A DNA stretch of 18,935 bases from Propionibacteriaceae bacterium (GTDB taxonomy: Bacteria > Actinomycetota > Actinomycetes > Propionibacteriales > Propionibacteriaceae), in the NCBI GenBank assembly GCA_031272685.1, contig JAISTI010000151.1:1-18935 (forward strand), in the 5' to 3' direction. Numbering within the stretch: the stretch's first letter is position 1; every line of letters begins with the position of its first letter. Shown piece after piece: positions 1,922 to 18,935 of the stretch. A program made the translations under genes and the position numbers. The notes beneath the pieces were generated by a model that saw only the letters and a program-made list of their open reading frames with translations, was not told the origin of the DNA and did not search any database.

Positions 1922-1961
1922 TAGCCCCGCCAGCATATAGCCCGCCAGTGGCAAAACCGGC

Positions 1962-3868: not shown

Positions 3869-3983
3869 AGGTAAAGCATGTCATCTTGGCGGCCCGGCGT
3901 GGAACGGCCGCCCGCGCGTGATGGGGGTTGGTTCAGGGACGACCCTAGTAGCGCGGGGCTGGGCGGCGAGCAAGAATGGCCGT

Positions 3984-5162: not shown

Positions 5163-5347
5163 GGCTGGACATCACCGCCCTCATCGTGGGGCTGCTCGCC
5201 TGTATCGGCGCGCTCACCGTCGTCGTGCTTTCCGTTTCGGCTATCGGATTCACCGTCTTGAGCACCGCAGGCCCGTTCATCCTGATCGGGGTGGCGCTGG
5301 TGGCGCTGGTCTTGGCCACCCGGCAGCCGCGCGGCCCGAAGGGGTAG
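5159..5347 (+). CDS. small two-helix membrane protein of unknown function
   Basis: A 62-residue protein with two predicted membrane helices (about 6-28 and 35-54) and a short basic C-terminal tail ending in PRGPKG. It overlaps the stop of the PspC protein gene by 4 bp (ATGA), so it is translationally coupled to it and likely works in the same envelope-stress unit. No catalytic motif is visible. Similar small membrane proteins follow PspC genes in other actinobacteria, but I cannot assign a function. Confidence 0.75.
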   Translation: MRLDITALIVGLLACIGALTVVVLSVSAIGFTVLSTAGPFILIGVALVALVLATRQPRGPKG

Positions 5348-5399
5348 CGGTCAGGGTTGAACCGGGGGCGGCTCAGGTGTTCAGACCTGGCAATTTCTA

Positions 5400-5427
5400 T
5401 TGGCAAAGGCAGTTTTTCCCCTAGAGT
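5400..5427 (+). promoter_or_regulatory. candidate sigma-70-type promoter for the DUF4870-like gene
   Basis: TTGGCA at 5400-5405 and TAGAGT at 5422-5427 are separated by 16 bp, a good fit to an actinobacterial housekeeping promoter. The expected start near 5434 leaves a short leader containing the GGAGGA ribosome-binding site at 5447-5452, just before the ATG at 5457. Prediction from sequence only. Confidence 0.45.
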
Positions 5428-5456
5428 ATTGCCATAACAATCGATTGGAGGACCCA

Positions 5457-5840
5457 ATGACAGACCAACCGACACCGGAATACCAGCAGCCGGTTCCGCC
5501 ACAGCAACCCGCTGGCTCAGACGCCGAACAAAACAAGGTATGGGGCATCCTCGCCTACATCATCTTCTTGATTCCGCTCCTGGCCGCGCCGAAAGACTCG
5601 CGCTTCGCCAAGTACCACACCAACCAAGGGCTTTGGCTCGTCATCGTCTCGGTGGGCGGCGCGATCGTCTGGTCGATCCTGGGGCTAATCCCGTTCCTCG
5701 GCGCCATCGCCTGGATCATCGCCCTGCTCTGGTGGATCCCGATTCTGATTTTCGCGATCCTCGGCATCGTCAACGCGGCGAATGGCAAAGAAGTCCCGCT
5801 GCCGTTGTTCGACAAGCTCCCCGTCATCATCAAGTACTAA
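5457..5840 (+). CDS. DUF4870/Tic20-like small membrane protein
   Basis: 127 residues. A polar, proline- and glutamine-rich N-terminal stretch (about 1-25) is followed by a four-helix-type hydrophobic region. The motif KYHTNQGLWLVI (about residues 50-61) is the signature of DUF4870/Tic20-like proteins, which often read F-H-x-x-Q-G/A at this point; the C-terminus FDKLPVIIKY also matches that group. A strong SD (GGAGGA, 5447-5452) sets the start at 5457. The gene has its own likely promoter and ends at a strong intrinsic terminator, so it is a single-gene unit. The function of this family is not established. Confidence 0.85.
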   Translation: MTDQPTPEYQQPVPPQQPAGSDAEQNKVWGILAYIIFLIPLLAAPKDSRFAKYHTNQGLWLVIVSVGGAIVWSILGLIPFLGAIAWIIALLWWIPILIFAILGIVNAANGKEVPLPLFDKLPVIIKY

Positions 5841-5860
5841 TACCTGACGGAACGCATCGG

Positions 5861-5896
5861 CAATCCGGCGGCCGCAAGGCCGCCGGATTGTTTTTT
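5861..5896 (+). terminator. strong intrinsic terminator
   Basis: A perfect 13-bp stem (arms 5861-5873 and 5878-5890) closed by a GCAA (GNRA) tetraloop is followed by six T residues at 5891-5896. It lies 20 bp after the DUF4870-like stop codon and reads in that gene's direction. There is no T-run on the other side, so it does not serve the convergent DUF3467 gene. Confidence 0.95.
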
Positions 5897-5924
5897 CCCG
5901 AGTTTTCGCGAAAGGGGCCGGACG

Positions 5925-6203
5925 CTACAGCTTCTTGTCGGGGTGCTCGCGCTCCCAGGCGCTGAGCTGCTGCTCCAGGGCCTTCATCAACTCGAACACC
6001 TGGCCGGGCGGGATGCGCACCCGGGCGGTGACCGATCCGTCGATGATCATCGAGCCGTCGTCTTCGTCGGCGTGCACCGGCTCGTTCAGGGCCACGAAGT
6101 CCAAAACGAAGGAATCGTTGGTGTGCCAGGCGCGGATGAAATCGGCGAAGACACCCAGCGCCGTCTGCTCCGACATCCGGATTCTCATTTGCTGCTCTGC
6201 CAT
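5925..6203 (-). CDS. DUF3467 family protein
   Basis: A 92-residue soluble protein. It matches the DUF3467 pattern: an N-terminal segment ending in SEQTALGVFADF, then HTNDSFVLDFV, then a basic/hydrophobic strand with ARVRIPPGQVFELMKALEQQL. The start at 6203 fits this alignment. The family is widespread, small and uncharacterised; relatives appear near very different genes. It is convergent with the DUF4870-like gene, with the terminator between them, and divergent from the LytR-CpsA-Psr gene across 57 bp. Confidence 0.85.
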   Translation of the reverse strand: MAEQQMRIRMSEQTALGVFADFIRAWHTNDSFVLDFVALNEPVHADEDDGSMIIDGSVTARVRIPPGQVFELMKALEQQLSAWEREHPDKKL

Positions 6204-6247
6204 GGGGCCAGCCTACCGGCCTATCCAGACTTTTCAGCAACTACAGG

Positions 6248-6253
6248 TAGGGT
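6248..6253 (+). promoter_or_regulatory. candidate -10 box, possible leaderless start
   Basis: TAGGGT ends 7 bp before the ATG at 6261, with no clear Shine-Dalgarno between them. The spacing would place the transcription start at or next to the start codon, a common arrangement in actinobacteria. No convincing -35 box is seen. Confidence 0.3.
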
Positions 6254-6260
6254 GTAAGGC

Positions 6261-7499
6261 ATGGGCAAAGGCACTAGGTTCGAACTGGACGACACCCAAG
6301 CGCTCCCGCAGCCGGGCAAGTGGAGTGTGAAACCCGAAAACGCGCTGGCCTGGGTGCACCGGGCGCTGATTCTGGTGGCGGTCGCCGGATTCGTGTTGGT
6401 GGCGATGCTGATGGCCGGCACCGGCCGGATGCTGCCGAACGGCGCGCAAATCGGCATCTGGATCGGCTCGGTGCTGGTCGCAGCGGCGTTGGTGGCAGGC
6501 AATTTGTTCGCCTCCGGGCGGCATCTGGTGCGCAGCGCGGCGCTCATCCTGGCCACCTTGGTGTTCGCCTTCGGCGCGGGCCTGGGCTCCTGGATGCTCG
6601 TCTCCGAGGTGAAAGAGTCGCTCAAAGACCTCTCCGGCGGCTGCGACAGCGCCTCGGCGGCTGGCTGCGGCGAGGAAATGCCCGAAATCGAAGCGGCCGA
6701 CCCATTTGCCATCTACATCTCCGGCATGGATTCCTACGGGGAGGTCTCGGAGAAATCCCGCTCCGACGTGAACCAGATCATCGCCTTCAACCCCGCCGAG
6801 AAGAAGATGCTGATGGTGAACACCCCGCGCGACTACTACGTCAAGCTCCACGGCCTCGGCCCGAAGAAAGACAAGCTCACCCACGCCGGCATCTACGGCA
6901 TCGACGTCTCCCGCCTCACCCTCGCCGACCTGTACAAGATCGAGCTGAAGTATTACGTCAAAATCAACTTCACCTCGCTGATCGACCTGATCGACCTGAT
7001 GGACGGCATCGACATCGAATCCGAATACACCTTCACCGCTGAGGACGGCTCGAAATTCACCAAGGGAATCAACCACGTCAACGCCAAGCAGGCGCTGGCC
7101 TTCGCCCGCGAGCGGCATGCCTTCAAAGACGGCGACCGGCAGCGCGGCAAAGACCAGCAAATCGTCATCAACGCCATCTTCGCCAAGCTGAAGTCGCCGG
7201 AACTGCTGCCGAAATACCCGTCCATCTTCGAGGCGATGAAAGGCCAGTTCCTGACGAACATCTCCGACGCGGACATCGACAAGCTGGCGGACATGGTTGG
7301 AACCGGCGAGTGGGACACGAAATCCATGAGCGTCACCGGCGGCGACGCCATGAAATACACCTACACCTATCCGAACCAGAAGCTGTATGTGATGACGCCG
7401 AACTCGAAGTCTTTGAAGAAGGCCCGCAAAGCCCTCGCCGAATACCTGACGCCCGCCCAGGCGGAAGTGGGCGTTGGCTCAATCACCGCCACACCCTGA
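6261..7499 (+). CDS. LytR-CpsA-Psr (LCP) family glycopolymer transferase
   Basis: 412 residues. LCP proteins move undecaprenyl-phosphate-linked glycopolymers such as teichoic acid or arabinogalactan-type polymers onto peptidoglycan outside the membrane. Three predicted N-terminal helices (about 34-54, 62-84, 90-115) precede the LCP domain (about 145-380), instead of the usual single anchor. Diagnostic motifs are SRSDVN, NTPRDYYVKLHG, KLTHAGIYG, YYVKINFTSLIDLID and the arginine-rich FARERHAFKDGDRQRGKDQQ that binds the polyprenyl phosphate. A two-cysteine loop (GGCDSASAAGCGE) lies between helix three and the domain. The wording resembles LCP proteins of Firmicutes and anaerobic actinobacteria more than typical mycobacterial ones, and lysine is unusually frequent for this neighbourhood. 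Confidence 0.92.
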   Translation: MGKGTRFELDDTQALPQPGKWSVKPENALAWVHRALILVAVAGFVLVAMLMAGTGRMLPNGAQIGIWIGSVLVAAALVAGNLFASGRHLVRSAALILATLVFAFGAGLGSWMLVSEVKESLKDLSGGCDSASAAGCGEEMPEIEAADPFAIYISGMDSYGEVSEKSRSDVNQIIAFNPAEKKMLMVNTPRDYYVKLHGLGPKKDKLTHAGIYGIDVSRLTLADLYKIELKYYVKINFTSLIDLIDLMDGIDIESEYTFTAEDGSKFTKGINHVNAKQALAFARERHAFKDGDRQRGKDQQIVINAIFAKLKSPELLPKYPSIFEAMKGQFLTNISDADIDKLADMVGTGEWDTKSMSVTGGDAMKYTYTYPNQKLYVMTPNSKSLKKARKALAEYLTPAQAEVGVGSITATP

Positions 7500-7531
7500 C
7501 GGATTTGCCGCCGCCGCCCGCCATCGCGGGC

Positions 7532-7537
7532 TAGAGT
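7532..7537 (+). promoter_or_regulatory. candidate -10 box for the thioredoxin gene
   Basis: TAGAGT lies 30 bp upstream of the thioredoxin ATG and is identical to the -10 sequence of the DUF4870-like gene. A start near 7544 would leave a short leader including the AGGAG ribosome-binding site at 7557-7561. No good -35 box at standard spacing. Confidence 0.3.
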
Positions 7538-7567
7538 TGGACGCCTACCGAACGATAGGAGTGAGCC

Positions 7568-7894
7568 ATGGCCGCGATTCAGCCGGTTTCCGATTCGACC
7601 TTCCAGCAGTCGGTGCTGAGCGCCGACGGCCCAGTGCTGGTGGACTTTTGGGCGGGCTGGTGCTCGCCGTGCAAGCAGCTCGCGCCCATCGTGGAAGAGC
7701 TGGCCGCCGAATACGCCGGCCGCATCGGCTTCTTCTCCATGGACATCGACGCCAACGCGCAGACGCCGATGGAATACGGCATCATGTCCATCCCCACCCT
7801 GCTGGTGTTCAAGGGCGGCCAGGTGGTCAAGGGCATCACCGGGGCGCGCCCGAAGGCCGCCATCGCCCGCGAGCTGGAGGCCGTGCTCGCCTGA
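7568..7894 (+). CDS. trxA: thioredoxin with WCSPC active site
   Basis: A 108-residue cytoplasmic thioredoxin, standard length and complete fold order: FWAGWCSPC active site (two redox cysteines at about 35 and 38), the D26-equivalent in LVDFW, the cis-proline loop in MSIPTLLVF, and the C-terminal KGITGARPK turn. The active-site dipeptide is Ser-Pro, whereas classical thioredoxin-1 has Gly-Pro; such changes shift redox potential modestly, so it may be a secondary thioredoxin. There is no signal peptide. RBS AGGAG precedes the ATG. It converges on the Clp-like ATPase gene with 16 bp between stops. Confidence 0.93.
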   Translation: MAAIQPVSDSTFQQSVLSADGPVLVDFWAGWCSPCKQLAPIVEELAAEYAGRIGFFSMDIDANAQTPMEYGIMSIPTLLVFKGGQVVKGITGARPKAAIARELEAVLA

Positions 7895-7910
7895 GCCCGG
7901 CAACAGCGAG

Positions 7911-9971
7911 TTAAGCCTTGTAGGCGGCCAGTTTTCCGCCTTCCACGCCGAAGCGCAGCGCCCGGCTGTCGGCTTTGGCCAGCAAAGTGACGAACTCCTG
8001 CTCGATATTGCGCTGCAAATGGCGGGCGCCATAGGCCGGGTCGTAGCCGGTGCGCGCCAGCCAGCTCGGCACCTCCGGATCCCACTCCACCGACCAGCCG
8101 GCGGCGGACAGCCGCGCCCGGGTGGCGTTCAGCTCGTTGGCGGCGATCTGCTCGATGGCGTCCAGGCTGAGCGACTCGAAGACGATGATGTCGTCGAGGC
8201 GGTTGATCAGCTCGGCGGGCATCTTCTCTTTCACAATCGCCAACAGCCGGGCGGTGTCGAGGGTGCCGTCCACCGAAGAGCCGAACCCCACCGCCTGCGA
8301 TTTCGCGTCGCGGATGCCGAGGTTGGAGGTCATGATGATGACCGTCTCGGAGAAGTCGGCGGTGGTGCCGCGCCCGTCGGTGAGCCGGCCGGCGTCAAAC
8401 ACCTGTAGGAACACATTCCACACCCGCGGGTGCGCTTTCTCGATCTCGTCGAGTAGCACCACGCAGTACGGCATGGCCGCCACCTTCGTGGTGAGCCAGT
8501 TTTCCGGCTCGGTGGAGCCGACATAGCCGGGCATCGGGCCGACGATGCGGGAGATCGCCCAGTCGTCGTAATACTCGCTCATGTCCAGGCGGATCAGCCG
8601 GTCGGGGCTGCCGTATTCGACGGCGGCCAGCTCGCGGGCGAGGTGGGTTTTTCCCACCCCGGTGGGCCCGATGAACAGGAAGACGCCGTTGGGCCGGTCG
8701 GGGCGCAAATCCAGATGAGCGCGGGTGACGGTGAGCCGGTCGGCGATCTGCGCGATGGCGTGCGGCTGGCCCTTCACCTTTTCTTCCAGCGCGGCGGCGA
8801 GGTTGTGGGCTTGGCTCTTGATGGGCGAATCGTCCTCCGACGAGGAAAGATGCTTCACCTCCACCGTCTTCGCCCCCGCCAGGTAGGCGCGGGCGACGGC
8901 GAGGTCGAGGCGGGAAATGCCCAAGCCGGGCTGGGCGTCTTCGTCGGAGCCGACCGCCGGGGCCAGCGTGGCCTCGATGGCTTCGGCGCTGATTTCCAGC
9001 CCGTAGCGGCCGGCGAGCTTGCCGCCCTCGACGGTCACGATTTCGCGCAACTGGGCAGAGGGCAGCTCGGTGACGGTCGTCACCGCGAGCGCCTCGTCCA
9101 GCGACTGGTTGATGACGGCCAGCCGGCTGGAAAAGCGCCGGTTCAGCACCAGCAGCAGCCGGGCGTGGGGGTGGAAGCGCATCTCGGAGATGGCGTCCAG
9201 CAGGCCCCGGTCTACCGCGTCGGTGCCGAGGTCGGCCAGCTCGTCGAGGTCGTCGATGACCACCACCGCCGGGGATTTGATGGCGACCATCGCCGAGCGC
9301 AGCCAGCCGGTGATGTTGTTGCCGGCCGTCTCCGGGCTGATCCGCCACAGCTTCACCGGCTCGGGCAGGCCGGCCAGGCGGGCGGCCACCGCGCTCAGGA
9401 TGGCGGTGCGGCCCACGCCTTGGCGGCCCAAAATCGCCGTCACCACCGGCTGTGCGCGCAGCAACTGGGCGCAGACGTCGTCCACCTCGCGCTCCCGGCC
9501 GGTGATCGCTCCCGGCTCCACCACCGTGAAGCGGCCTTCCAGACCCTTGGCCAGGGATTCGGCTGGCTCGGGCTCCGCTTTGGCGCCTTCACCTTCGGCG
9601 GCCTTGGCCGCCGAAGGGTTGGAAGGCTCTGCCTTGCCGGAATCAGCGGGCTCGGCGCTGTCATTTTCGCCGGCCGGTCCACCGCCGTCGAGGTCGTCTT
9701 TGAGCTGGTCGAAGATGGCCTGCACCGTCGCCATCCGGTCGTCGGCGTTGTCCAGGATTTTCGCCAGGTCGGCCTCGGAGCCGTGGAACTTTCCGGCTGA
9801 GAGCAGCGCCTCGACTTTCCGCTTGCCGTCTTCGCCGAAGACCTCGTTGAATTCGCTCTCCCATTTGCGCGCCAGCACGATCGCAGCATGCGTCAGGGAC
9901 GGCTCCTCGCCGCCCCAGCGCTTCGTCTCCGACCGGGCTGAATCCAGGATTATCTCTCCAGCCGCGATCAT
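7911..9971 (-). CDS. two-module Clp/Hsp100-like AAA+ ATPase with degenerate first module
   Basis: 686 residues. Residues 1-90 are helical with a Clp_N-like stretch (THAAIVLARKW). A low-complexity Ala/Glu/Pro/Ser linker covers about 95-143. Module 1 (about 155-370) has Walker A GRQGVGRT, with arginine 188 in place of the catalytic lysine, Walker B VVVIDD (236-241), and no recognisable aromatic pore loop. Module 2 (about 395-686) is intact: Walker A GPTGVGKT (435-442), pore loop GYVG (482-485), Walker B VVLLDE (504-509), sensor TSN (548-550), arginine finger R591 and sensor-2 GAR (648-650). The tripeptide VGF (561-563) sits where ClpA and ClpC carry their ClpP-docking loop. There is no ClpB coiled-coil middle domain. 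It is 3 bp downstream of the YbjN gene. It is probably an unfoldase, but its substrate and partner are unknown; it is not a standard ClpA, ClpB or ClpC. Confidence 0.88.
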   Translation of the reverse strand: MIAAGEIILDSARSETKRWGGEEPSLTHAAIVLARKWESEFNEVFGEDGKRKVEALLSAGKFHGSEADLAKILDNADDRMATVQAIFDQLKDDLDGGGPAGENDSAEPADSGKAEPSNPSAAKAAEGEGAKAEPEPAESLAKGLEGRFTVVEPGAITGREREVDDVCAQLLRAQPVVTAILGRQGVGRTAILSAVAARLAGLPEPVKLWRISPETAGNNITGWLRSAMVAIKSPAVVVIDDLDELADLGTDAVDRGLLDAISEMRFHPHARLLLVLNRRFSSRLAVINQSLDEALAVTTVTELPSAQLREIVTVEGGKLAGRYGLEISAEAIEATLAPAVGSDEDAQPGLGISRLDLAVARAYLAGAKTVEVKHLSSSEDDSPIKSQAHNLAAALEEKVKGQPHAIAQIADRLTVTRAHLDLRPDRPNGVFLFIGPTGVGKTHLARELAAVEYGSPDRLIRLDMSEYYDDWAISRIVGPMPGYVGSTEPENWLTTKVAAMPYCVVLLDEIEKAHPRVWNVFLQVFDAGRLTDGRGTTADFSETVIIMTSNLGIRDAKSQAVGFGSSVDGTLDTARLLAIVKEKMPAELINRLDDIIVFESLSLDAIEQIAANELNATRARLSAAGWSVEWDPEVPSWLARTGYDPAYGARHLQRNIEQEFVTLLAKADSRALRFGVEGGKLAAYKA

Positions 9972-9974
9972 GGC

Positions 9975-10412
9975 TCAGCTTTCGTGGAAGCGGGTGCCGC
10001 CGAATTTGCCCTGCAACTCCTCGTCGAGGTCGTCGGCGGAATCCATCAGCCAGGTGACGGCATAGCCCAGCTCCGCCTCGTCGAGGTAGTCGCCGAGCAG
10101 CACATGCGACATGATCAGGTTGATGCCGCCGTCTTGGCGCTCCACCAGGTGCAGCCGACCGTAGATAAAACTGCCGGCGTTGTAGGCGACGTATTTGTGC
10201 AGCTCCGGGCTGTCGACGACGTTCGTCAGCACCTGCGCCCAGATGCGCACGAATACTGGGCCGTCTTCCTCTTCCCGCTGGTCGACGGAGATGAAGCCGC
10301 GGGCCGAGCCGTTGCGGACGGTGAAGTCGCCGTCCGAGTCGATGGTGACCGAGCCGAAAATGTCCTGCAGATATTGCTGGACTTTGTTCTTTACCGCAAG
10401 TAGATTCCCCAT
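9975..10412 (-). CDS. YbjN-domain (type III secretion chaperone-like fold) protein
   Basis: A 145-residue soluble acidic protein that looks like a single YbjN domain, about residues 8-130. Typical marks are the N-terminal helix (VKNKVQQYLQDIFG), the beta-hairpin GSARGFISVDQR, the segment PVFVRIWAQVL and the C-terminal helix DEAELGYAVTWLMDSADDLDEEL. The domain resembles secretion chaperones but most actinobacterial members have no known role. A good SD (AGAGGAG) precedes the ATG. It is the first gene of a two-gene unit with the Clp-like ATPase 3 bp away, which suggests it could be an adaptor or substrate of that ATPase (inference). It is divergent from the lone hypA across 113 bp. Confidence 0.8.
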   Translation of the reverse strand: MGNLLAVKNKVQQYLQDIFGSVTIDSDGDFTVRNGSARGFISVDQREEEDGPVFVRIWAQVLTNVVDSPELHKYVAYNAGSFIYGRLHLVERQDGGINLIMSHVLLGDYLDEAELGYAVTWLMDSADDLDEELQGKFGGTRFHES

Positions 10413-10513
10413 GTTTTTCTCCTCTGAAATGTGGCTGTGGGGGTCAATAGCACTCTACCGGCCCGGCCGGTGGCCGCGCGGCGAATCCCACATACTTTCG
10501 GCAGCTCTCAAGC

Positions 10514-10519
10514 TAATGT
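10514..10519 (+). promoter_or_regulatory. candidate -10 box, possible leaderless start of second hypA
   Basis: TAATGT ends 6 bp before the GTG at 10526 and no Shine-Dalgarno is present, which fits leaderless transcription starting at the GTG. No clear -35 box is seen. Confidence 0.3.
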
Positions 10520-10525
10520 GGGTGC

Positions 10526-10867
10526 GTGCACGAATTGGGGCTGCTGCGCGGCGTGGTCAAGGCGGCGGTGGCGGCCGTCGCCGGAAAACCCGGCGCGATC
10601 GCGGCGGTCGGCTTGCGGGTGGGCACGCTTTCCGGGGCGGTGCCGCAGGCGCTGGAAGGCGCCTGGCCGCTCGCTATCGCCGGCACCCGGCTGGAATCCG
10701 CCAGATTGGAAATCGAGCCGGTGCCAGCCGCCGTCTACTGCCCCGCCTGCCAGGCCGAGCAGCCCATCGACGAGTTTTTCGCCCTCGCTTGCCCGGTGTG
10801 CGCCGCCCCGACCGGGGCCTTGGCGCGCGGCCGGGAATTTCAGCTCGCTTACGTGGATTTGGAATAG
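10526..10867 (+). CDS. HypA-like nickel metallochaperone, divergent second copy
   Basis: 113 residues from a GTG at 10526, chosen because it gives the N-terminal Met-His-Glu that binds nickel in HypA. The zinc site is intact: two CxxC pairs, C72/C75 (CPAC) and C89/C92 (CPVC). HypA delivers Ni(II) with HypB to the hydrogenase large subunit. Between the metal sites the sequence differs strongly from the other HypA in this window (17110-17445), with an Ala/Gly-rich middle. Its position is unusual: it stands alone, convergent with hypC, sharing 19 bp at the 3' ends, and is not part of the hypAB unit. It could be a second chaperone, a HybF-like variant, or dedicated to the large-subunit paralogue in this locus. 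Confidence 0.85.
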   Translation: MHELGLLRGVVKAAVAAVAGKPGAIAAVGLRVGTLSGAVPQALEGAWPLAIAGTRLESARLEIEPVPAAVYCPACQAEQPIDEFFALACPVCAAPTGALARGREFQLAYVDLE

Positions 10868-11076
10868 TCTTCGCCGCTGAAGGCCGCTAACACCTCTTCG
10901 GCTTCTTCCGCGGTGAGGAGCTGGATGGCGAAGCCGTGCTGAGTGAGCACGAAATCGCCAGGTTTCGCTTCCGGGTAGTAAGCCAGACAGCATTCGCCGT
11001 CCCGGCCCACCAGGCGGGCCATCGGCAGCGCGCCGGGGGTAATCTCGGCGATTTCAGTTGGGATGGCGACGCACAT
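10849..11076 (-). CDS. hypC: hydrogenase maturation chaperone HypC
   Basis: A 75-residue HypC/HupF-family protein, normal length. It has the defining N-terminus MCVAIP, in which C2 binds the Fe(CN)2CO precursor and the large subunit, and the GDFVLTQHGFAIQLL motif (H47 region). HypC carries the iron moiety from HypD, where it is assembled with cyanide from HypE/HypF, to the apo-large subunit. It is the last gene of the minus-strand hydrogenase operon, 3 bp after the large-subunit-like gene. HypD, with which it normally works, is not in this window. Confidence 0.97.
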   Translation of the reverse strand: MCVAIPTEIAEITPGALPMARLVGRDGECCLAYYPEAKPGDFVLTQHGFAIQLLTAEEAEEVLAAFSGEDYSKST

Positions 11077-11079
11077 GTT

Positions 11080-12312
11080 TTACCCTTCGATTCTCACAGC
11101 CATTTTGCCAGGTGGCGCGCTGGCGCACGGCAGGCAGGGGTCGGCGGCGCGGATTGCCGCCGCCATTGCGGCTTCCGGGTTGGCTCCGCCCGCCGCCCGC
11201 AGCAGCATTTGGGCTAGCCACGGCTCATTTTGGGCGGTCGGGGTCAAGATGGTGGCGGCGACGACATTTCCTTGCGCGTCAGTCTGATAGCGGTGCGCCA
11301 GCAGCCCGCGGGCGGAATCCACCCAGCCGGTGCCAGTGCGGCCCGCAAGTTGGCCGGGGGAGACGGGATGCACGGCCGCCGGTTGCGCGGGGGGAGTCTC
11401 GCCTAAGACCGTGAAGTCCGCCGCGATGCGCTCGACGGCGTGCACGCAGACGATGGCCCGGGCTTGCCCGGCCGGCTGGGGCCCCGCGAGCCAGGCGGCT
11501 TGCGCCGTGGCGGCCTGCGGGGTTTGCAATGTTCCGAGGCGAAGCTGGGCGGCCGGGCCGACGCGGTAGCCGCCTTGCCTTGAACCCAATTCCGCCAAGA
11601 ACGGGCGCGGGGCGGGCGCGCCGGGGAACTCCTCGGCGATGAGGGCCTCGAACTCGGCCGGACCGCCTTCCGCGAGGACTGCCCCGTCAGGGGCCACCGC
11701 CCGCAGGCGGCTGCCGTACAAGGCCGGGTTGCCGTTGCCGTCCACCAAGCCCACATCAGCCAGCGCGCAAGGGCTGCCGGGGCCGTCGTCCCCATCTGCG
11801 GCGATGGCGAGCGCGGTTTCCAAGATGTTTGGAAGCGCCTCCAGGCAGCGCTCCCGGTCGCCGTCCGCGACAGCCGCGCTCACCCCACCCACGATGGCGG
11901 TGGCGGGAAAGTGCCCAGGCGAGCCGGCGGCGGCCATCACCAGCTTTGCGAAACGCACCAGTTTTACCGCCGGCTCCGGGCGCGCGGGCAGCCAGGTGAG
12001 CGCGTGGGTGGCGAGCACCGCCGCGTGGTGCAAAATGCCGCGGACCAGCTCGGCAGCGGGCGGGGGTGTGACGCCCGCCAGCGCCTCCAGCGCCCGCACT
12101 CCGGCCAGGTGGTGCGCCTGCGGGCAAATCCCGCACAGCCGTTCTACCAAATGGGGAACCTCCGCCGCCGGTTTCCCCAGCAGCAGCGGCTCCACCCGGG
12201 GCAGCGCCTCCATGTCGAACTGCGCGGCGACGGGCCTTCCGGCGGCGTCGCGGGTCAGCAACACCCGGGCGGCGTCCGGATCCAGGGCCTCGTCGATGCT
12301 GACGCGCGTCAT
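11080..12312 (-). CDS. [NiFe]-hydrogenase large-subunit-like protein, possible HupK/HoxV-type scaffold
   Basis: 410 residues, much shorter than the true large subunit in this window (588). The N-terminal active-site motif is intact: RLCGICPQAHH with C60, C63 and H67. The C-terminal motif DPCLPC (C393, C396) is also present, but the residue three past C396, a histidine or arginine in maturing large subunits, is alanine 399, followed by 11 more residues. The first motif (GICP) reads more like group 3 enzymes than the GVCT of its neighbour. No partner small subunit exists here. Its place after the protease and before hypC is where rhizobial and Ralstonia operons encode HupK/HoxV, a large-subunit-like scaffold for cofactor assembly. 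Scaffold is my preferred reading; a divergent active hydrogenase is less likely. It overlaps the protease gene by 4 bp. Confidence 0.8.
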   Translation of the reverse strand: MTRVSIDEALDPDAARVLLTRDAAGRPVAAQFDMEALPRVEPLLLGKPAAEVPHLVERLCGICPQAHHLAGVRALEALAGVTPPPAAELVRGILHHAAVLATHALTWLPARPEPAVKLVRFAKLVMAAAGSPGHFPATAIVGGVSAAVADGDRERCLEALPNILETALAIAADGDDGPGSPCALADVGLVDGNGNPALYGSRLRAVAPDGAVLAEGGPAEFEALIAEEFPGAPAPRPFLAELGSRQGGYRVGPAAQLRLGTLQTPQAATAQAAWLAGPQPAGQARAIVCVHAVERIAADFTVLGETPPAQPAAVHPVSPGQLAGRTGTGWVDSARGLLAHRYQTDAQGNVVAATILTPTAQNEPWLAQMLLRAAGGANPEAAMAAAIRAADPCLPCASAPPGKMAVRIEG

Positions 12313-12767
12313 GGGGCCAACCAGGAGTCGAGGATTTCGGCCGCCAGCGCGGCGGCTTGCGCAACGGCGGCGGCAACCGCCGTGCTCAAACCGACGCGCA
12401 TTTCCACCACCTGCGGCACCACGCCCACAATCTCCACCGCTTCCGGCTCTTTGCCGGTCAGCCGGGCCGCCGAAAGCACGTCCAGCAGGCCGACCTCATG
12501 CGGGGAGAGTTTCGACGAGAGCAGCCGGGGCAGGTGGTCACCACTGAAACGCAACACCTGGCCGGGGATGTCCCCGGACACCGCGTCCAGGAGCAGCAGC
12601 TTGCCGGCGTCCTGCACTTGCGGCAACAGTTCCAGCCCGCCGGTTCCGCCGTCGGAGTATTCGACGCGCGGATCGGGACGCAGTTGCCGCAGCTCGGCCA
12701 GCACCGCCAGCCCCACACCGTCGTCCCCCATGATCGGGTTGCCGATGCCGAGGACGGTGACGGGCAC
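12309..12767 (-). CDS. hyaD: hydrogenase maturation protease, HyaD/HybD family
   Basis: 152 residues from a GTG at 12767 that overlaps the cytochrome b stop. This endopeptidase removes the C-terminal peptide of the large subunit after nickel insertion. The family signature GIGNPIMGDDGVG is at the N-terminus, and the three nickel-sensing ligands are visible: D16, D61 in LLLLDAVSGD and H90 in LSPHEVGLLDVL. Alignment to E. coli HybD is continuous through DVLSAARLTGKEP and VGVVPQ. It follows the large-subunit and cytochrome genes as in hya operons. The substrate should be the 14-residue tail of the large subunit in this operon. Confidence 0.95.
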   Translation of the reverse strand: MPVTVLGIGNPIMGDDGVGLAVLAELRQLRPDPRVEYSDGGTGGLELLPQVQDAGKLLLLDAVSGDIPGQVLRFSGDHLPRLLSSKLSPHEVGLLDVLSAARLTGKEPEAVEIVGVVPQVVEMRVGLSTAVAAAVAQAAALAAEILDSWLAP

Positions 12768-13981
12768 TACCCGACCTCGGGAGCATCGACGGGGTTGGTG
12801 CCCCGGCGCAGCCAGACGCCGCCGTTGATCATGGACGAGATGCCGCCGTGGCGGTCGAGGGAGTCGGCGCGGACGGCAAGGTAGATGTGCATCACCACGA
12901 ACATCCACAGGGCGAACATCATGCCGGTGTGGAACATCCGTACCGTCGGGATGCCGAACCAGTGGCAGGGGGTGGCGGCCAGCGCCCAAATCCAGTTGTT
13001 TTGGTGGTACAGGCCGAATAGGGCGAAGCCGGTGATCATCTGCAGGCCGCAGGCGCAGTACAGCGCCGCATAGGTGAGCTGTTGCAGCGGGTTGTGGGCC
13101 AGGTAGACCGGGGCGTCCTCTTTGATCAGGGCGTAGTGCTGCACCACTTGGCCCAGGTTGCGCACATCCTGCTTGCGTTTCAGCGGCCACCACTCCGTCC
13201 AGCGCAAGTGCGGGTCGCGGGCCACGAAGGCGGAGACGACGCGGGTCATGCCCAGCACCACCCAGACGGCGGCGGCGATGAAATGCACGAGCCGGAACCA
13301 GCCCATCAGGTAGCCGGTGCCCTCTCCGGCGTAGGCCTCCGGGCCGAAGAACGGGTGCATGATGAAATAGCCGGTGAGGCTGAGGGTGAAGATGGTGGCC
13401 ACATTCGTCCAGTGCTGCAGCCGCAGCGAGAGCGACCAGACGGGCACCTCGGTCCAGTCGGCCGGGCCGGGATCGGGCAGGCCGCGGGAGATCTTCTCCC
13501 GGCCGATGTTCACCAGCCCTTGCAGCCGGAACTCCCCGACAGTGTCGCCGTCGGTGACCAGCGCGGTAGCCACCGCCAGCGGCCGCCAGCCGCGCATGCT
13601 GGCCCAGTCGGCATTCCGGTGGACGAGGGAGCGGTCTTTGCGGGTGATTTTCACCTGCTTCAGCACCGCTTCGAGATCGCCGCGCATCACCACCACGTCG
13701 GCGGTGGTGCCTTCTTTGATTGGGAAATCGCGCACCATCGCCAGCGAATAGCGCCGCTGCGCGGTGGCGGGGTCGAAGTCGCCTTCTTCCACATAGGGCA
13801 GCGGCAAATCCGGGCGGTCAACCCGCAGGGTTTCGGCGATGGCGTGGTCGACAGGGTCGTCGGAACCTTCCGGGGCGGCGGCGGCCAGCGCCAGCACCCG
13901 CCCCTGGCTGAGTTTGCCGACGCTGAAACCCGCCCTGGCGATGTAGTTGGAGGCCGGCCTGGCGGCGGTCGCGACGCTCAC
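12767..13981 (-). CDS. hyaC: hydrogenase cytochrome b subunit with N-terminal P-type-ATPase-like extension
   Basis: 404 residues from a GTG at 13981 overlapping the large-subunit TGA (GTGA). The C-terminal part (about 180-404) is a normal HyaC-type diheme cytochrome b: LRLQHWTNV with H190, a second helix with RLVHF (H233), and the last helix pair with H351 and H365 (RMFHTG, VVMHIYLAV). It anchors the hydrogenase and passes electrons to the quinone pool. The first 175 residues are not found in HyaC proteins such as E. coli's (about 235 residues). They read like the nucleotide-binding region of a P-type ATPase, described as a separate feature. This architecture is unusual. The alternative of a long upstream start is excluded because it would lie inside the large-subunit gene. 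Confidence 0.93.
   Translation of the reverse strand: MSVATAARPASNYIARAGFSVGKLSQGRVLALAAAAPEGSDDPVDHAIAETLRVDRPDLPLPYVEEGDFDPATAQRRYSLAMVRDFPIKEGTTADVVVMRGDLEAVLKQVKITRKDRSLVHRNADWASMRGWRPLAVATALVTDGDTVGEFRLQGLVNIGREKISRGLPDPGPADWTEVPVWSLSLRLQHWTNVATIFTLSLTGYFIMHPFFGPEAYAGEGTGYLMGWFRLVHFIAAAVWVVLGMTRVVSAFVARDPHLRWTEWWPLKRKQDVRNLGQVVQHYALIKEDAPVYLAHNPLQQLTYAALYCACGLQMITGFALFGLYHQNNWIWALAATPCHWFGIPTVRMFHTGMMFALWMFVVMHIYLAVRADSLDRHGGISSMINGGVWLRRGTNPVDAPEVG
13493..13933 (-). other. P-type-ATPase N-domain-like region fused to hydrogenase cytochrome b
   Basis: Residues 17-163 of the cytochrome b. In order they match P-type ATPase landmarks. GFSVGKLSQGR occupies the place of the phosphorylation motif (DKTGTLTxGR), with the acceptor Asp replaced by Phe19. 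LALAAAAPEGSDDPVDHAI (30-48) matches the start of the N-domain. FDPATAQRRYSLAMV follows, then MRGDLEAVL (99-107) in place of KGAPEAVL, then MRGWRPLAVA (129-138) as in G-L-R-P-L-A-V-A, then LQGLVNI. There are no transport helices and no hinge with the TGD or GDGxND motifs. It is therefore a P-type-derived, catalytically dead segment by this reading. It rests on motif recall, not on an alignment search. Confidence 0.65.
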
Positions 13982-15744
13982 GTCAATACCTCCGCCATCT
14001 CCTGGCCGTCCACGTCCAAAACGTGCACCGCGCACGACATGCACGGGTCGAAGGAGTGGATGGTGCGCAGCGGTTCCAGCGGCTGGGTGGGATCGGCGAG
14101 CGGGTGTTTGCCGTTGCCGGCGAGGGATTCCTCGTACGGCCCCTGCTGTCCTTGCGCGTCGCGCCCACCGGCGAGCCAGGTGGTCGGCACCACGCACTGG
14201 TAGCGGGAGATTTTGCCATTTTCGATGGTGACCCAGTGGCTGAGGTTGCCGCGGGCCACCTCCACGAAGGAATATCCGGAGCACTGCGACGGCCAGCTGG
14301 ACGGCTCCCACTTCGAGGCGTCGAAGACGTCGATGTCGCCGCCCTTGAGGTTGGCCACGAATGTGGGGAAGCTCTCATTGGCGAGCAACTCGGCCGCGAG
14401 CAGGCACTCGGCGGCGCGGGCCAGGGTGCGCCCGGCGGTGGAGTTGAGCTGGCCGATGGTGATTCCCAGCTTCTGGGCCGCCATGGTGACGATTTCCTTG
14501 GTGCGGGCGTGGCCGCGGGCGTAGCCCAGCAGGATGCGGGCCACCGGGCCGACCTGCACCGGATAGCCGTCGTAGCGCGGGGCTTTGCACCAGGTGTATT
14601 CGGGGTTGTCGGACAGCCACGGCAGGCCGTCGTTCGGGGCGGCGGTGTACGGCGGCTTCGGGCCGGTGTATTTCACCGTAGTCTCGCCTTTGTCCGGGGT
14701 GAGGCCGACATCGCCCTCGGCGTATTCGTACCAAGCTGAGGAGGCCCATTCGGTGATCTTCGCAGGGTCGAAAGCCTCCACGCTCACTTTGTCGCCGTCG
14801 AGGTGCACCACACCCGGCTCCACCTCGGTGTGCACCGATTTCACCCGGGCGTTCGCCGGATCGCCGGCGTAGGTGGCGCCCGTGAGGCCGACGGCCAGGA
14901 AGTCCGGCTGGGCGGCGCCGATGTCGAAGTAGTCTTTGTAGACGCCGGCGATGGCGAGCGCGTCGGGCACGTAGCAGTTGGTGACGAAGTCGACGCACTC
15001 GTTGATCCAGCCCTGCACCGCGTCGAGTTGCACCTGGTTGATGGATTCGGAATGGTTCGGGTCGATGGCGCAGGCCATGCCGCCCACCAGGAAGTTCGGG
15101 TGCGGGTTCTTGCCGCCGAAAACCGTCACGATGCGGATCATCGAGCGCTGGAATTCGAGGGCGTCGAGGTAGTGGGCGACGGCCATCAGGTTCGCCTCCG
15201 GCGGCAGCCGGTAGTCGGGGTGCCCCCAATAGCCGTTGGTGAAGACGCTGAGCTGGCCGGATTCGACGATGGACTTCACCGTGTCGCGCACCGCCGTCAT
15301 CCGGGTGAGGTTGTTGCCCTTCCAGTTTGAGCCGATGGATTGCGCGAAGGCGACGGCTTTGGCCGGGTCGGCGTCAATGCACGCGGCGACGTCGACGAAG
15401 TCCAGGGCGTGCAGGTGGTAGAAGTGGATCACATGGTCTTGGATTTCCTGCGCGCCGAGCACGATGTCGCGGATGCGCAGCGCCTGCTCGGGCGGGTTGG
15501 AGCCGATGGCGTTCTCCACCGCGTTGATGGAGGCGATGGCGTGCACGGAGGTGCAGACCCCGCAGATGCGCCCGACGAAGGCCCAGGCGTCGCGCGGGTC
15601 GCGGCCCTGCAAGATGGTCTCCAGGCCGCGGAACTGGGTGGTCTCGCTCCAGGCTTTGGTGATCTGGCTGTTGGCCGTCTCCAACTCGATGCGCAGGTGG
15701 CCCTCGATGCGGGTGATGGGGTCGATTACAACACGTTCGGCCAT
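13978..15744 (-). CDS. hyaB: [NiFe]-hydrogenase large subunit, group 1
   Basis: 588 residues, the length expected of a periplasm-facing uptake hydrogenase catalytic subunit. It binds the Ni-Fe(CN)2CO centre through C61 and C64 (RICGVCTSVH, residues 59-68) and C568 and C571 (DPCMSCAVH, 566-574). Maturation should cut after H574, releasing 14 residues. The N-terminus VIDPITRIEGHLRIE is the family start, and RIEGH carries the conserved glutamate of the proton path. A strong SD (AGAGGAGG) lies in the end of the small-subunit gene, 2 bp away; the cytochrome gene starts at its stop (GTGA). It has no signal peptide: it leaves the cell together with the Tat-targeted small subunit. The class (group 1) is certain; the subgroup would need a reference tree. 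Confidence 0.98.
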   Translation of the reverse strand: MAERVVIDPITRIEGHLRIELETANSQITKAWSETTQFRGLETILQGRDPRDAWAFVGRICGVCTSVHAIASINAVENAIGSNPPEQALRIRDIVLGAQEIQDHVIHFYHLHALDFVDVAACIDADPAKAVAFAQSIGSNWKGNNLTRMTAVRDTVKSIVESGQLSVFTNGYWGHPDYRLPPEANLMAVAHYLDALEFQRSMIRIVTVFGGKNPHPNFLVGGMACAIDPNHSESINQVQLDAVQGWINECVDFVTNCYVPDALAIAGVYKDYFDIGAAQPDFLAVGLTGATYAGDPANARVKSVHTEVEPGVVHLDGDKVSVEAFDPAKITEWASSAWYEYAEGDVGLTPDKGETTVKYTGPKPPYTAAPNDGLPWLSDNPEYTWCKAPRYDGYPVQVGPVARILLGYARGHARTKEIVTMAAQKLGITIGQLNSTAGRTLARAAECLLAAELLANESFPTFVANLKGGDIDVFDASKWEPSSWPSQCSGYSFVEVARGNLSHWVTIENGKISRYQCVVPTTWLAGGRDAQGQQGPYEESLAGNGKHPLADPTQPLEPLRTIHSFDPCMSCAVHVLDVDGQEMAEVLT

Positions 15745-15746
15745 GG

Positions 15747-16961
15747 CTAGGCCTCCTCTCCGCTCGCGGCCGGTTCTTCGCCGGCGGGCACCGGTTCGGC
15801 CGGCTCAGGGATGTCGCCGAAGGCCTCCAGCGGCTCGTCGCCCTTCTTCTGCGCGGCCGCGTGCCGCAGCGCGGTGGCGCCGGCGTGCAGGCCGACGCCC
15901 ACTACCGTCGCGCCCAGCAAACCCCAGCCGACAGTTTCGGCGGTGGCCTCGATGCCGAGCCCGGTGACGTTCGGCAGCGCGTGGTAGAAGGGAGTGAAGC
16001 GGTCGTAGAAGTGCTTCTCGGTGCAGCCGATGCACGGGTGCCCGGCGCCGATCGGCCAGGAGGTGTGCAGGTTCCATTGGATTATGGGGCAGGCCGAGAA
16101 AGTGCTGGGGCCCTTGCAGCCCATCTCGTACAGGCACCAGCCGGAGCGGGAGCCTTCGTCGTCGAAGGTGCGCACATATTGGCCGGCGTCGAAGTGCGGC
16201 CGGCGGGGGCAGGAGTCGTGGATGCGCTGGTCGTAGGCGAACAGCGGGCGGCCTTCGGCGTCGGTGCGCGGCAGCGACTCGTGGGTGAGGATGTAGGCGA
16301 CGGTGGCGGTGATGACTTCGGCGATGGGCGGACAGCCGGCCACGTTGATGACGGGCTTGTCGCGGATGATCTGGTCGACGCCGACCGCGCCGGTCGGGTT
16401 TGGGTTGGAGCCTTGCACCGAGCCCCAGACCGCGCACGCGCCGACCGCGAGGATGGCGGTGGCGTTTTCGGCGGATTCCCGCAGCACCTGCTCGGCGGAC
16501 TTGCCGCCCATGGTGCAGTAGATGCCGCCGTCCTTGACCGGGATGGAGCCGTTCACCACCAAGATGTGCGGCTCGGCGTTGGTGGAATCCAGCGCCTTGT
16601 TGGCGGCATCGCCGGCGGCGGCCATTATGGCTTCGTTGTAGTTCACCGAAAGCAGGTTCAACACCACTTCCTCCACGGTGGTGCCGCCGGAGCGCAGCGC
16701 GCTCTCGATGCAGCCGGTGCATTCCTGCAGCTGCAGCCAGACTACGTTCGGCTTGGTCACGTCGGCGAGTTTTTCGGCAATTAGGTCGCCGGTGATCTCG
16801 TCGGCCATCGCCTCATTTCCGGCGCCCAGCAGCGAGGGGGCGACGGTGAAGATGGCGGCCAGCGAGCCGCAGTATTTCAGGAAGTCCCGGCGCTCGACAC
16901 CGGCCCTGGCGAGATTTTCGCCCAATGTCGGCTCTTGCCAACCGTCTAGTTTGTAGGACAT
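15747..16961 (-). CDS. hyaA: [NiFe]-hydrogenase small subunit, Tat-exported and membrane-anchored
   Basis: 404 residues. The Tat signal ERRDFLK (twin arginine R24-R25) and hydrophobic core lead to cleavage probably near residue 53 (AMA). The proximal cluster is CTGC (C81, C84) with C176 in GACAVWGS; at the two positions that give O2-tolerant enzymes extra cysteines, this protein has Gly83 and Ser181. Distal ligands are HDSC and CLYEMGC; the medial cluster, with WP and HPCIGC, looks like the usual 3Fe-4S. A C-terminal membrane helix (about 344-362) anchors the enzyme to the cytochrome. Beyond it is an unusual 37-residue Ala/Glu/Pro-rich acidic tail. It is the first gene of the operon, with SD GAGAGGAAC 10 bp from the ATG at 16961. 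Confidence 0.97.
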   Translation of the reverse strand: MSYKLDGWQEPTLGENLARAGVERRDFLKYCGSLAAIFTVAPSLLGAGNEAMADEITGDLIAEKLADVTKPNVVWLQLQECTGCIESALRSGGTTVEEVVLNLLSVNYNEAIMAAAGDAANKALDSTNAEPHILVVNGSIPVKDGGIYCTMGGKSAEQVLRESAENATAILAVGACAVWGSVQGSNPNPTGAVGVDQIIRDKPVINVAGCPPIAEVITATVAYILTHESLPRTDAEGRPLFAYDQRIHDSCPRRPHFDAGQYVRTFDDEGSRSGWCLYEMGCKGPSTFSACPIIQWNLHTSWPIGAGHPCIGCTEKHFYDRFTPFYHALPNVTGLGIEATAETVGWGLLGATVVGVGLHAGATALRHAAAQKKGDEPLEAFGDIPEPAEPVPAGEEPAASGEEA

Positions 16962-17109
16962 GCGAACCTAGTTCCTCTCTATAAAAAGCGGCGACGCTTG
17001 TTTTTCGGGGGTAAGTTCAGGCACACACTATCGCAGAAAACCCCTAGAAGTAATACCTATTGGGGTTCTTTTTATCGGTTGCGTTAATCATGGGCGTAAG
17101 GTGCGGGAT
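16962..17109. promoter_or_regulatory. divergent control region between hydrogenase operon and hypAB
   Basis: 148 bp, AT-richer than the flanks. On the minus side, TATAGA (16983-16978) and SD AGAGGAA precede the small-subunit start. On the plus side, AAGG at 17098-17101 precedes hypA. It contains the inverted repeat described separately. No FNR-type TTGAT-N4-ATCAA box is present, so the regulator is not evident. Confidence 0.6.
17039..17073 (+). promoter_or_regulatory. inverted repeat followed by T-run upstream of hypA (operator or attenuator)
   Basis: AACCCC (17039-17044) and GGGGTT (17062-17067) are inverted; the stem can continue through TAG (17045-17047) and CTA (17057-17059) with a two-base TT bulge, around a 9-base loop. 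A near-pure T-run follows (17066-17073). Read on the plus strand it is shaped like a weak terminator, but it sits in a leader rather than after a gene, so attenuator or protein-binding operator is more plausible. Confidence 0.45.
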
Positions 17110-17445
17110 ATGCACGAAATGGCGCTCAGCCGCTCCATCGCCGACATCGCCCGCCGCCGGGCGGAAGGCCGGGCGGTGCGCGCCGTGGAAATCGACGTGG
17201 GCGAGTTGCGCCAGGTGGTGCCGGACACGCTGCGAAGGTGTTGGACGCTGCTGGTGCGCGGCTCGGATTTGGACGGCGCGGCCTTGCGGGTGAACCGGAT
17301 TCCGGCGGTGCTCGGCTGCCGTGCCTGCGGTGCGCGAACTACCCCCACCGACCTGCCTATACTTGTTTGCGGCGCCTGCGCCGCCCCGGACGTCGAAGTG
17401 GTCTCCGGAGAAGAATTCCTTGTCAGAGCCTTGGAGGTGGATTGA
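17110..17445 (+). CDS. hypA: hydrogenase nickel metallochaperone HypA
   Basis: 111 residues from the ATG at 17110. A GTG three codons earlier is rejected because the mature HypA N-terminus must be Met-His-Glu, where the N-terminal amine and H2 bind nickel. The zinc site has C70/C73 (CRAC) and C87/C90 (CGAC). Motifs EIDVGELRQVVPDTL and SGEEFLVRALEV fit the standard actinobacterial HypA well, so this is the canonical copy. It hands nickel to the large subunit with HypB. Its TGA overlaps the hypB ATG (TGATG). Confidence 0.96.
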   Translation: MHEMALSRSIADIARRRAEGRAVRAVEIDVGELRQVVPDTLRRCWTLLVRGSDLDGAALRVNRIPAVLGCRACGARTTPTDLPILVCGACAAPDVEVVSGEEFLVRALEVD

Positions 17446-18251
17446 TGGGCCGTTTTCACCGTCATGACGGCGAGCATGAGCATTCCCACGATCACGATCA
17501 CGATCACGATCACGAACACGGCCATGGGCACGGGCCGGACAGCGGCCACGGCGCCGAGCTGGTCGGCGACCATTCCGGGTATGCCACCGGTACCGAGCGC
17601 ATCGAAATCCTGGAGCGCGTCTTTGCGGAAAACGACCACGCGGCCGCCCACAACCGGGCGCATTTCGACGCCGCCGGGGTGCGGGCCGTCAACATTATGT
17701 CCTCGCCCGGATCGGGCAAGACCACCCTCATCGCCCAAACCTTGCAAGCGTTGAAAGGCAAGCTGCGGGTGGGCGTCATCGAGGGCGACATCGCCACCGC
17801 CATCGACGCCGACCGGCTGCGCGGGCTGGCGGCGCAGGTGTCGCTGCTGAACACCGAGGCCGGTTTCGGCGGGGAGTGCCACCTCGACGCGCCGATGGTG
17901 GCGCACGCCATCCACGGGCTCGACCTCGGCTCGCTGGACTTGGTGTTGATTGAAAACGTCGGAAACCTGGTCTGCCCGGCGGAGTTCGACGTCGGGGCGC
18001 ACCGGCGGGCGATGGTTGCCAGCGTAACCGAAGGCGAGGACAAGCCGCTGAAATACCCGGTGATGTTCCGGGTGGTCGACGCGGTCGTCGTCAACAAAAT
18101 CGACCTGCTGCCCCATTTGGATTTCGATTTGGGCCTCTTCTTGGCGAACCTGCGGACGGTGAACCCAGCGGCCAAAGTCATTCTGGCTTCGGCGAAGACC
18201 GGCGAGGGCGTCCAAGAATGGCTCGGGTGGCTTTCCGAGCCAGCCGAATAG
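17445..18251 (+). CDS. hypB: hydrogenase nickel-incorporation GTPase HypB with histidine-rich N-terminus
   Basis: 268 residues. HypB is a SIMIBI GTPase that drives nickel release from HypA to the large subunit. The G-domain carries P-loop SSPGSGKTT (K92), the metal-bridging dimer pair C145-H146 in GGECHLDA, ENVGNLVCPAEFD and the guanine-specificity motif NKIDLLP. The first 43 residues contain 14 histidines, mostly in D-H pairs, a nickel-storage tail as in rhizobial and Bradyrhizobium HypB. The E. coli-type N-terminal CxxCGC high-affinity site is absent. The start overlaps the hypA stop. Confidence 0.97.
   Translation: MGRFHRHDGEHEHSHDHDHDHDHEHGHGHGPDSGHGAELVGDHSGYATGTERIEILERVFAENDHAAAHNRAHFDAAGVRAVNIMSSPGSGKTTLIAQTLQALKGKLRVGVIEGDIATAIDADRLRGLAAQVSLLNTEAGFGGECHLDAPMVAHAIHGLDLGSLDLVLIENVGNLVCPAEFDVGAHRRAMVASVTEGEDKPLKYPVMFRVVDAVVVNKIDLLPHLDFDLGLFLANLRTVNPAAKVILASAKTGEGVQEWLGWLSEPAE
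17487..17519 (+). repeat. in-frame CACGAT hexamer tract coding for His-Asp repeats
   Basis: Four exact tandem copies of CACGAT at 17487-17510, then CACGAACAC, inside the HypB histidine tail. Each hexamer adds one His-Asp pair, so slippage would change the number of nickel ligands without breaking the frame. Confidence 0.9.
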
Positions 18252-18254
18252 GGC

Positions 18255-18260
18255 TAGGGT
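18255..18260 (+). promoter_or_regulatory. candidate -10 box downstream of hypB
   Basis: TAGGGT in the short gap after hypB, upstream of SD GAAAGGA (18271-18277) and the ATG at 18284. It may give the two membrane-protein genes a second, internal promoter. No strong -35 box is visible. Confidence 0.25.
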
Positions 18261-18283
18261 TTTCCCAAACGAAAGGACGCGAG

Positions 18284-18649
18284 ATGGCTTGTTTCCTGGC
18301 ACCCACCGCCGCCGCCATGGTGGTCGGCGTGGTCAAAAGCTCCGCGAAAGAAGCGGCCCCCAAAGCCGGCCGCCTCCCACTGCGCACCAAACTCTCCTGG
18401 CTTCTCACCATGCTCGCCGGCGGCTCCGTGCTGCTGGCCCTGGAGCACCTCTGGCACGGCGAGGTCGTCCTCGCCCCGCCCTTCCTCACCGCCATGGCGG
18501 ACGGCGCGAGCACGGCCGTTATGGTGCAAGAGATCGCGACGGTCGGGGTGGGCATGGCAGTGCTGGTAACCGTCTGCTGGGCTGTCATGGTGGTGGCGGT
18601 CGAGCGGATCGCGCTGCTGCGCCGGGTGTTCGTCAAGGCTGAGCGGTGA
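18284..18649 (+). CDS. small conserved-looking membrane protein of unknown function
   Basis: 121 residues from the ATG at 18284, with SD GAAAGGA. Predicted layout: a short N-terminal hydrophobic stretch (MACFLAPTAAAMVVGVV), a basic loop, a helix at about 38-55, the motif LEHLWHGEVVLAPPF (about 53-67) and a helix at about 83-108. The two histidines and glutamates in LEHLWHGE could bind metal or heme but this is conjecture. I recall small membrane proteins with a W-H-G-E-V core in strict anaerobes, and cannot check this here. It follows hypB after 32 bp and overlaps the next gene (GTGA), so it belongs to a membrane pair probably linked to the hydrogenase unit. Confidence 0.8.
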   Translation: MACFLAPTAAAMVVGVVKSSAKEAAPKAGRLPLRTKLSWLLTMLAGGSVLLALEHLWHGEVVLAPPFLTAMADGASTAVMVQEIATVGVGMAVLVTVCWAVMVVAVERIALLRRVFVKAER

Positions 18650-18935
18650 CGCTGATCCTCACCGCGCTGGCGGTGATCCTGGTGACGGTGCTGCGCTTCG
18701 CCAAGCCGGATGCCGGGGTGCGGCTGCGCTTGGGCACCCTCGCCCTCATCTACCTCGGGGCGGCCTTGATGTGGTGCGTGGACGGCATCGCCGCCCTGGC
18801 CCAAGCCGAGCCCTTTCTTGATTTTTCCGACCCGGCCGTCATCGCCGACGACTCGCTGCTCGGGCTGGCGGTAATCGCGCTTGGGCTGGTGGTGTGGGGA
18901 GTTTTGCTCGGCATCTCGAAGATCACCGATCGCAA
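18646..18935 (+). CDS. small membrane protein of unknown function, 3' end cut by window
   Basis: Open from a GTG at 18646, overlapping the previous stop (GTGA), to the window edge: 96 codons. It has a hydrophobic helix at the start (LILTALAVILVTVL), a second helix around residues 30-50 containing ALMWCVDGIAAL, and a third near the end (GLAVIALGLVVWGVLLGI). It looks like a three-helix membrane protein and likely a partner of the preceding gene product. No catalytic motif is visible and I do not recognise the family firmly. A long GC-rich antisense frame here is not believed. Confidence 0.75.
   Translation, partial: MTLILTALAVILVTVLRFAKPDAGVRLRLGTLALIYLGAALMWCVDGIAALAQAEPFLDFSDPAVIADDSLLGLAVIALGLVVWGVLLGISKITDR

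Follow-up and report, generated by a model that had tools for sequence, protein, structure and literature searches.

The cytochrome b gene and its operon

The window analysed here is a stretch of 18,935 nucleotides from a Propionibacteriaceae bacterium (assembly GCA_031272685.1, contig JAISTI010000151.1, positions 1 to 18,935), and it carries an operon in which the small and large subunits of a [NiFe] hydrogenase lie beside a gene for a HyaC-type cytochrome b. The product of the latter gene joins a hydrogenase cytochrome to an N-terminal extension that, by fold and homology, is a P-type ATPase N-domain. The features of the gene and of the operon are as follows:

12767..13981, minus strand: HyaC-type cytochrome b gene, 404 aa; its GTG start overlaps the hyaB stop
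13493..13948, minus strand: P-type ATPase N-domain-like domain, residues 12-163 (AlphaFold2, Foldseek, VIA-align, NCBIfam TIGR01647, profile searches, hhalign)
13442..13492, minus strand: low-confidence linker, residues 164-180; mean pLDDT 61 (block 161-170) and 63 (block 171-180)
12821..13441, minus strand: cytochrome b561-type membrane domain (PF01292 / TIGR02125), residues 181-387
13989-13993: GGAGG, upstream of the GTG start of the cytochrome b gene
13978..15744, minus strand: hyaB, [NiFe] hydrogenase large subunit, 588 aa
15747..16961, minus strand: hyaA, hydrogenase small subunit; TIGR00391 above cut-off, twin-arginine-type motif RRDFLK
12309..12770, minus strand: hydrogenase maturation protease (HyaD/HybD type); TIGR00072 above cut-off

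The start of the cytochrome b gene is credible because the GGAGG precedes it and the GTG overlaps the hyaB stop. Residues 181-387 form a hydrogenase cytochrome b of the usual kind; PF01292 (85.1 bits) was the sole Pfam match above cut-off in the whole protein, and TIGR02125 scored 127.7 bits against a cut-off of 121.5. Five histidines of this part (H190, H233, H296, H351 and H365) are invariant among 43 aligned relatives and are candidate ligands of two hemes.

The extension is a P-type ATPase N-domain

When the AlphaFold2 model of the extension was compared by Foldseek and VIA-align, the N-domain fold was matched across the entire domain, with the correct domain ends. Sequence comparisons were made with an alignment of 37 members of the fusion family (A2), obtained from a larger alignment of 43 (A1) by dropping P0014, P0024, P0032, P0038, P0041 and P0043. 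The top NCBIfam model was TIGR01647, which matched 11 of the 37 members at E<=0.1 (best 7e-6). In 396 genomes of the phylum, the family profile gave matches at E<=0.001 in six, namely its own and five others; all five of the non-self matches were P-type ATPases, in which the match begins 6-18 residues past the Asp of DKTGT. In 394 genomes of the class, a sample that partly overlaps the former (scoring was limited in both to eight candidates per genome), there were four non-self matches at the same threshold, the best two being P-type ATPases. The remaining two (L051 and L052) lie opposite an apparent gyrase A gene and a phosphodiesterase-like gene, as judged by eye, and were discarded as chance. 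Aligned by hhalign with two P-IIIA-like N-domains, the family reached a probability of 95.9% over residues 10-162, with 0.3% for the reversed control; this result and a second of 94.1 are partly circular, since their targets had been found by the profile itself (reversed controls 0.1-0.3). Against 30 pumps that the profile had not chosen, the probability was 46.8 (P 2e-4). The domain is most like the N-domains of P-IIIA H+-ATPases. In each of 41 genomes (own and relatives) TIGR01647 had at least one match at E<=0.001 and in none did it reach its cut-off, so the likely donor family is unseen above threshold in the near relatives.

Some of the searches weigh against this ancestry. Pfam gave no match to the extension alone and no P-type match in any of the 37 members; hhalign matched a P2-like set of 12 poorly (probability 11.4); and the second-ranked NCBIfam model, TIGR01525 (P1B; 7/37), fell on the wrong pump part in the window protein. 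The P1B models in general (TIGR01525, together with TIGR01512 in 4/37 and TIGR01511 in 1/37) were out of register there and were rejected, as were four further single NCBIfam matches among the members, which were unrelated, and four unrelated one-off Pfam matches, taken as chance. A search of PDB sequences with the single domain returned six weak matches to P1B pumps (best E 0.011), and one with the profile returned eleven (best E 0.012; ten P1B-type pumps and one SopB fragment). Neither was used as evidence; in the top matches the best-scoring stretch lay on the wrong pump part, near the end and after GDGxND, and a second, weaker stretch (LAA..SEHP) was in register. The Pfam silence and these PDB results are what one would expect of an unrelated alpha/beta domain merely resembling a P-type N-domain, an explanation that we consider hardly tenable: the computations speak strongly against it, as the fold is matched over the whole domain with the right ends and the sequence evidence is in register, with reversed-sequence controls at a probability of at most 0.3.

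An earlier note, made from the DNA sequence alone, had described a P-type-ATPase-like domain fused to this cytochrome, with the phospho-accepting aspartate replaced by phenylalanine. N-domain ancestry and fusion to HyaC stand; the Asp-to-Phe substitution does not, as the fold match begins beyond the position of DKTGTLT. The stretch FSVGKLS was considered as a mutated DKTGTLT and rejected on the same ground, and some members of the family (e.g. P0030) start too late to hold it at all. The note was right that the domain is catalytically dead: DKTGT, TGES and GDGxND are all missing from the 404 residues, and the extension can neither be phosphorylated nor pump, because it was excised just past DKTGTLT and at the strand returning to the P-domain.

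The fusion is probably inherited as a unit

A homologue search with residues 1-175 yielded at least 44 proteins, the query included, and two further searches added three each, so that at least 50 proteins carry the extension; 49 of them contain PF01292 and one is a 103-aa partial sequence. These counts are lower bounds, because each search covered about 8,000 candidates (those sharing most words) and proteins of limited length. Alignment A1 comprises 43 of the 44, a partial protein of 240 aa (P0017) being left out, and the six proteins from the later searches are in neither alignment. The source names among carriers were Propionibacteriaceae, Bifidobacteriaceae, Cellulomonas, Brooklawnia, Micrococcales, Actinomycetia, Xylanimonas allomyrinae and X. 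ulmi. Of 30 genomes from the window's genus, its own among them, 14 had a match, which in all 14 begins at residue 16 or earlier; 30 other genomes of the family and order had no match to the extension. With up to eight candidates scored per genome, the phylum and class samples showed no copy of the fusion outside its own genome, which points to a rare or patchy occurrence among evenly sampled genomes. A search for stand-alone copies of the domain with the 37-sequence profile, under the same limits on candidates and protein length, gave four matches, three with PF01292 and a fourth, the partial 103-aa P0045, that shows nothing either way.

In all 11 distinct relative loci hyaB, hyaC and hyaD are consecutive, and hyaA lies upstream in each of the four that extend that far. 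For comparison, ten further actinobacterial loci were collected in which an ordinary HyaC has a strong TIGR02125 match (L053-L062; at least 119 bits, nine above the cut-off and one at 119.1 bits); the HyaB proteins of the nine measured are 42-46% identical to that of the window. In the eight testable loci, the space ahead of the cytochrome match is about 65-305 nt, which is too short for an N-domain.

Among its carriers the domain has changed more than the cytochrome part (mean pairwise identity 48% versus 63%), as might be expected if it were evolutionary ballast, a functionless leftover of the fusion. We regard this as very improbable, given that ten of its positions are invariant among the 43 sequences and that its divergence rises and falls with that of the cytochrome (Mantel r 0.62; none of 1000 permutations as high). 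Because the two divergences track one another, the data fit one old fusion, arising probably from a single capture and inherited as a unit.

Other genes of the locus

A hypB gene at the locus scored above its NCBIfam model cut-off, and the nearest solved structure to HyaB is 3myr, followed by E. coli hydrogenase-1. The hydrogenase operon is flanked by two different hypA-like genes (10526-10867 and 17101-17445, both on the plus strand), each below its model cut-off. At 11080-12312 on the minus strand lies a gene for a second [NiFe] large-subunit-like protein of 410 aa, which bears a cysteine pair at each end (LCGIC, DPCLPC). A second small-subunit gene does not adjoin it, and its best NCBIfam match, VhuA at 118 bits, is far under cut-off. 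This protein, which we presume may be HupK/HoxV-like, occurs with the hya operon in three relative loci (L003, L004 and L007), in varying orientation. Further away (7911-9971, minus strand), a 686-aa protein has a C-terminal half like the second AAA domain of ClpB/ClpA, preceded by a further ATPase-like region, all matches being far under the family cut-offs.

Membrane side and nucleotide-site residues

In the membrane part, loop 2 and the C-terminus carry the positive charges and loops 1 and 3 do not; by the positive-inside rule the N-domain should be cytoplasmic, in agreement with the side proposed in the earlier note. Cytochromes of the HyaC family are thought to bind quinone on this same side.

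The positions of the pump nucleotide site were then mapped onto the domain:

13682..13684, minus strand: Arg100, which takes the place of the pump Lys (KGA motif, SERCA Lys515); Arg in 43/43
13583..13585, minus strand: Arg133, matching SERCA Arg560; Arg in 43/43
13847..13849, minus strand: Asp45, matching SERCA Glu442; Asp in 35/43
13775..13777, minus strand: Phe69, at the probable position of the adenine-stacking SERCA Phe487; this mapping is less certain than the other three

Among other pump-site positions, Leu562 is retained in 42 of the 43 sequences, Thr441 is replaced by Val in 42, and Lys492 is replaced by Arg in 39 and retained in 3. Placement of the adenine Phe differed by three columns between two alignments, an ungapped hhalign alignment pointing to Ala72 and a MAFFT alignment with the FDPAT motif of L084 pointing to residue 69. 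With 41 Ala and 2 Pro at residue 72, and mostly aliphatic side chains at residue 69 (V 27, I 8, F 5, L 2, Y 1), the aromatic is missing in most members under both alignments.

A review (PMC10654040) places a conserved Lys, which P1B and P6 pumps lack, in the ATP site of the N-domain. PMC3203174 calls Phe487 and Arg560 necessary for nucleotide binding, and for KdpB PMC6255902 names Phe377, Ser384 and Lys395. PMC11977196 assigns the Arg560 position a role in binding the nucleotide and a second one as a domain contact, so its conservation alone is no proof of a nucleotide. With basic and acidic positions kept, Arg in place of the pump Lys and mostly no aromatic for the adenine, the pocket is compatible with a weakly bound nucleotide, with a different anionic ligand, or with no ligand.

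A proposed role in hydrogen oxidation

We propose that the HyaC of a membrane-bound uptake [NiFe] hydrogenase in actinobacteria acquired a P-IIIA-like N-domain, with which it is inherited as one polypeptide, and that the domain may serve as a regulatory cap, a reading to which we give an even chance. The domain would lie on the cytoplasmic side, as does the quinone-side heme in cytochromes of this family, and would hold an anionic ligand (ATP, ADP or another phosphate compound) by Arg100, Arg133, Arg77 and Asp45; binding would alter its packing on the cytochrome and thereby tune electron transfer from H2 to menaquinone. A ligand is favoured because two arginines are invariant. In a narrower form of the proposal, which is possible and rather doubtful, the hydrogenase would sense adenylate or phosphate status through this domain on its quinone-side cytochrome, coupling H2 oxidation to energy charge.

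Several observations argue the other way. The conserved pump Lys of the ATP site is Arg throughout, and of the 43 sequences 37 have an aliphatic and 6 an aromatic residue at the probable adenine position, which together make tight ATP binding doubtful. The p value of 0.003 is confounded by core conservation, and the pTM of the full-length model (0.54) is such that the orientation of the domain on the cytochrome is not trusted. The chief rival, which we hold to be nearly as likely as the regulatory cap, is that the captured domain is ligand-free and acts as a cytoplasmic platform for docking or assembly, e.g. for oligomerisation, as a maturation checkpoint or for contact with another membrane complex. 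Both site substitutions agree with such a platform, as do conserved charged residues outside the mapped pocket (e.g. D42, R84 and D95) and the domain-contact role of the Arg560 position. Against it, two of the domain's only three invariant charged residues (D42, R100 and R133) are at nucleotide positions.

P-type N-domains are familiar as built-in parts of pumps. In this case the domain occurs away from any pump, as a conserved component of a respiratory complex in a group of actinobacteria, with carrier proteins recorded under Xylanimonas allomyrinae and X. ulmi among them. The fusion is a candidate means for a cell to control membrane-bound H2 uptake directly according to its energy state, and it offers a natural test of whether a P-type N-domain can act alone as a ligand sensor; if the proposal is true, this would be such a sensor outside any pump. 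No description of a P-type N-domain fused to a hydrogenase cytochrome was found in open-licence PMC papers (subscription papers and preprints lie outside this search), consistent with the earlier note's view that the fusion was undescribed.

Comparison with known systems

The window protein resembles the HyaC/HupC/HoxZ-type cytochromes b (TIGR02125, PF01292) in its cytochrome domain, which is above the curated cut-off, and in its operon partners hyaA, hyaB and the maturation protease, but it has about 175 additional N-terminal residues. With the N-domains of the P-IIIA plasma-membrane H+-ATPases (Pma1, AHA2; TIGR01647) it shares the fold, the domain ends and the best NCBIfam match, as well as the DP(V/I)D helix start, the DPAT-like loop, the (K/R)G turn and the GxRxLxVA strand. 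Unlike those pumps, it lacks a P-domain, an A-domain and transport helices; the fusion family further differs in the Lys-to-Arg exchange of the KGA motif, in a mostly aliphatic residue in place of the stacking Phe, and in about three additional residues ahead of the RRYS strand. The isolated N-domains of KdpB (PDB 1svj) and of P1B pumps (5lbk, 2voy) are pieces of pumps studied alone, whereas here the domain is a natural part of a non-pump protein. P-type ATPase parts are also joined to a different enzyme in the Toxoplasma guanylate cyclase with P4-ATPase domains (PMC6592433); that is a eukaryotic P4-ATPase module, not a single N-domain on a hydrogenase subunit.
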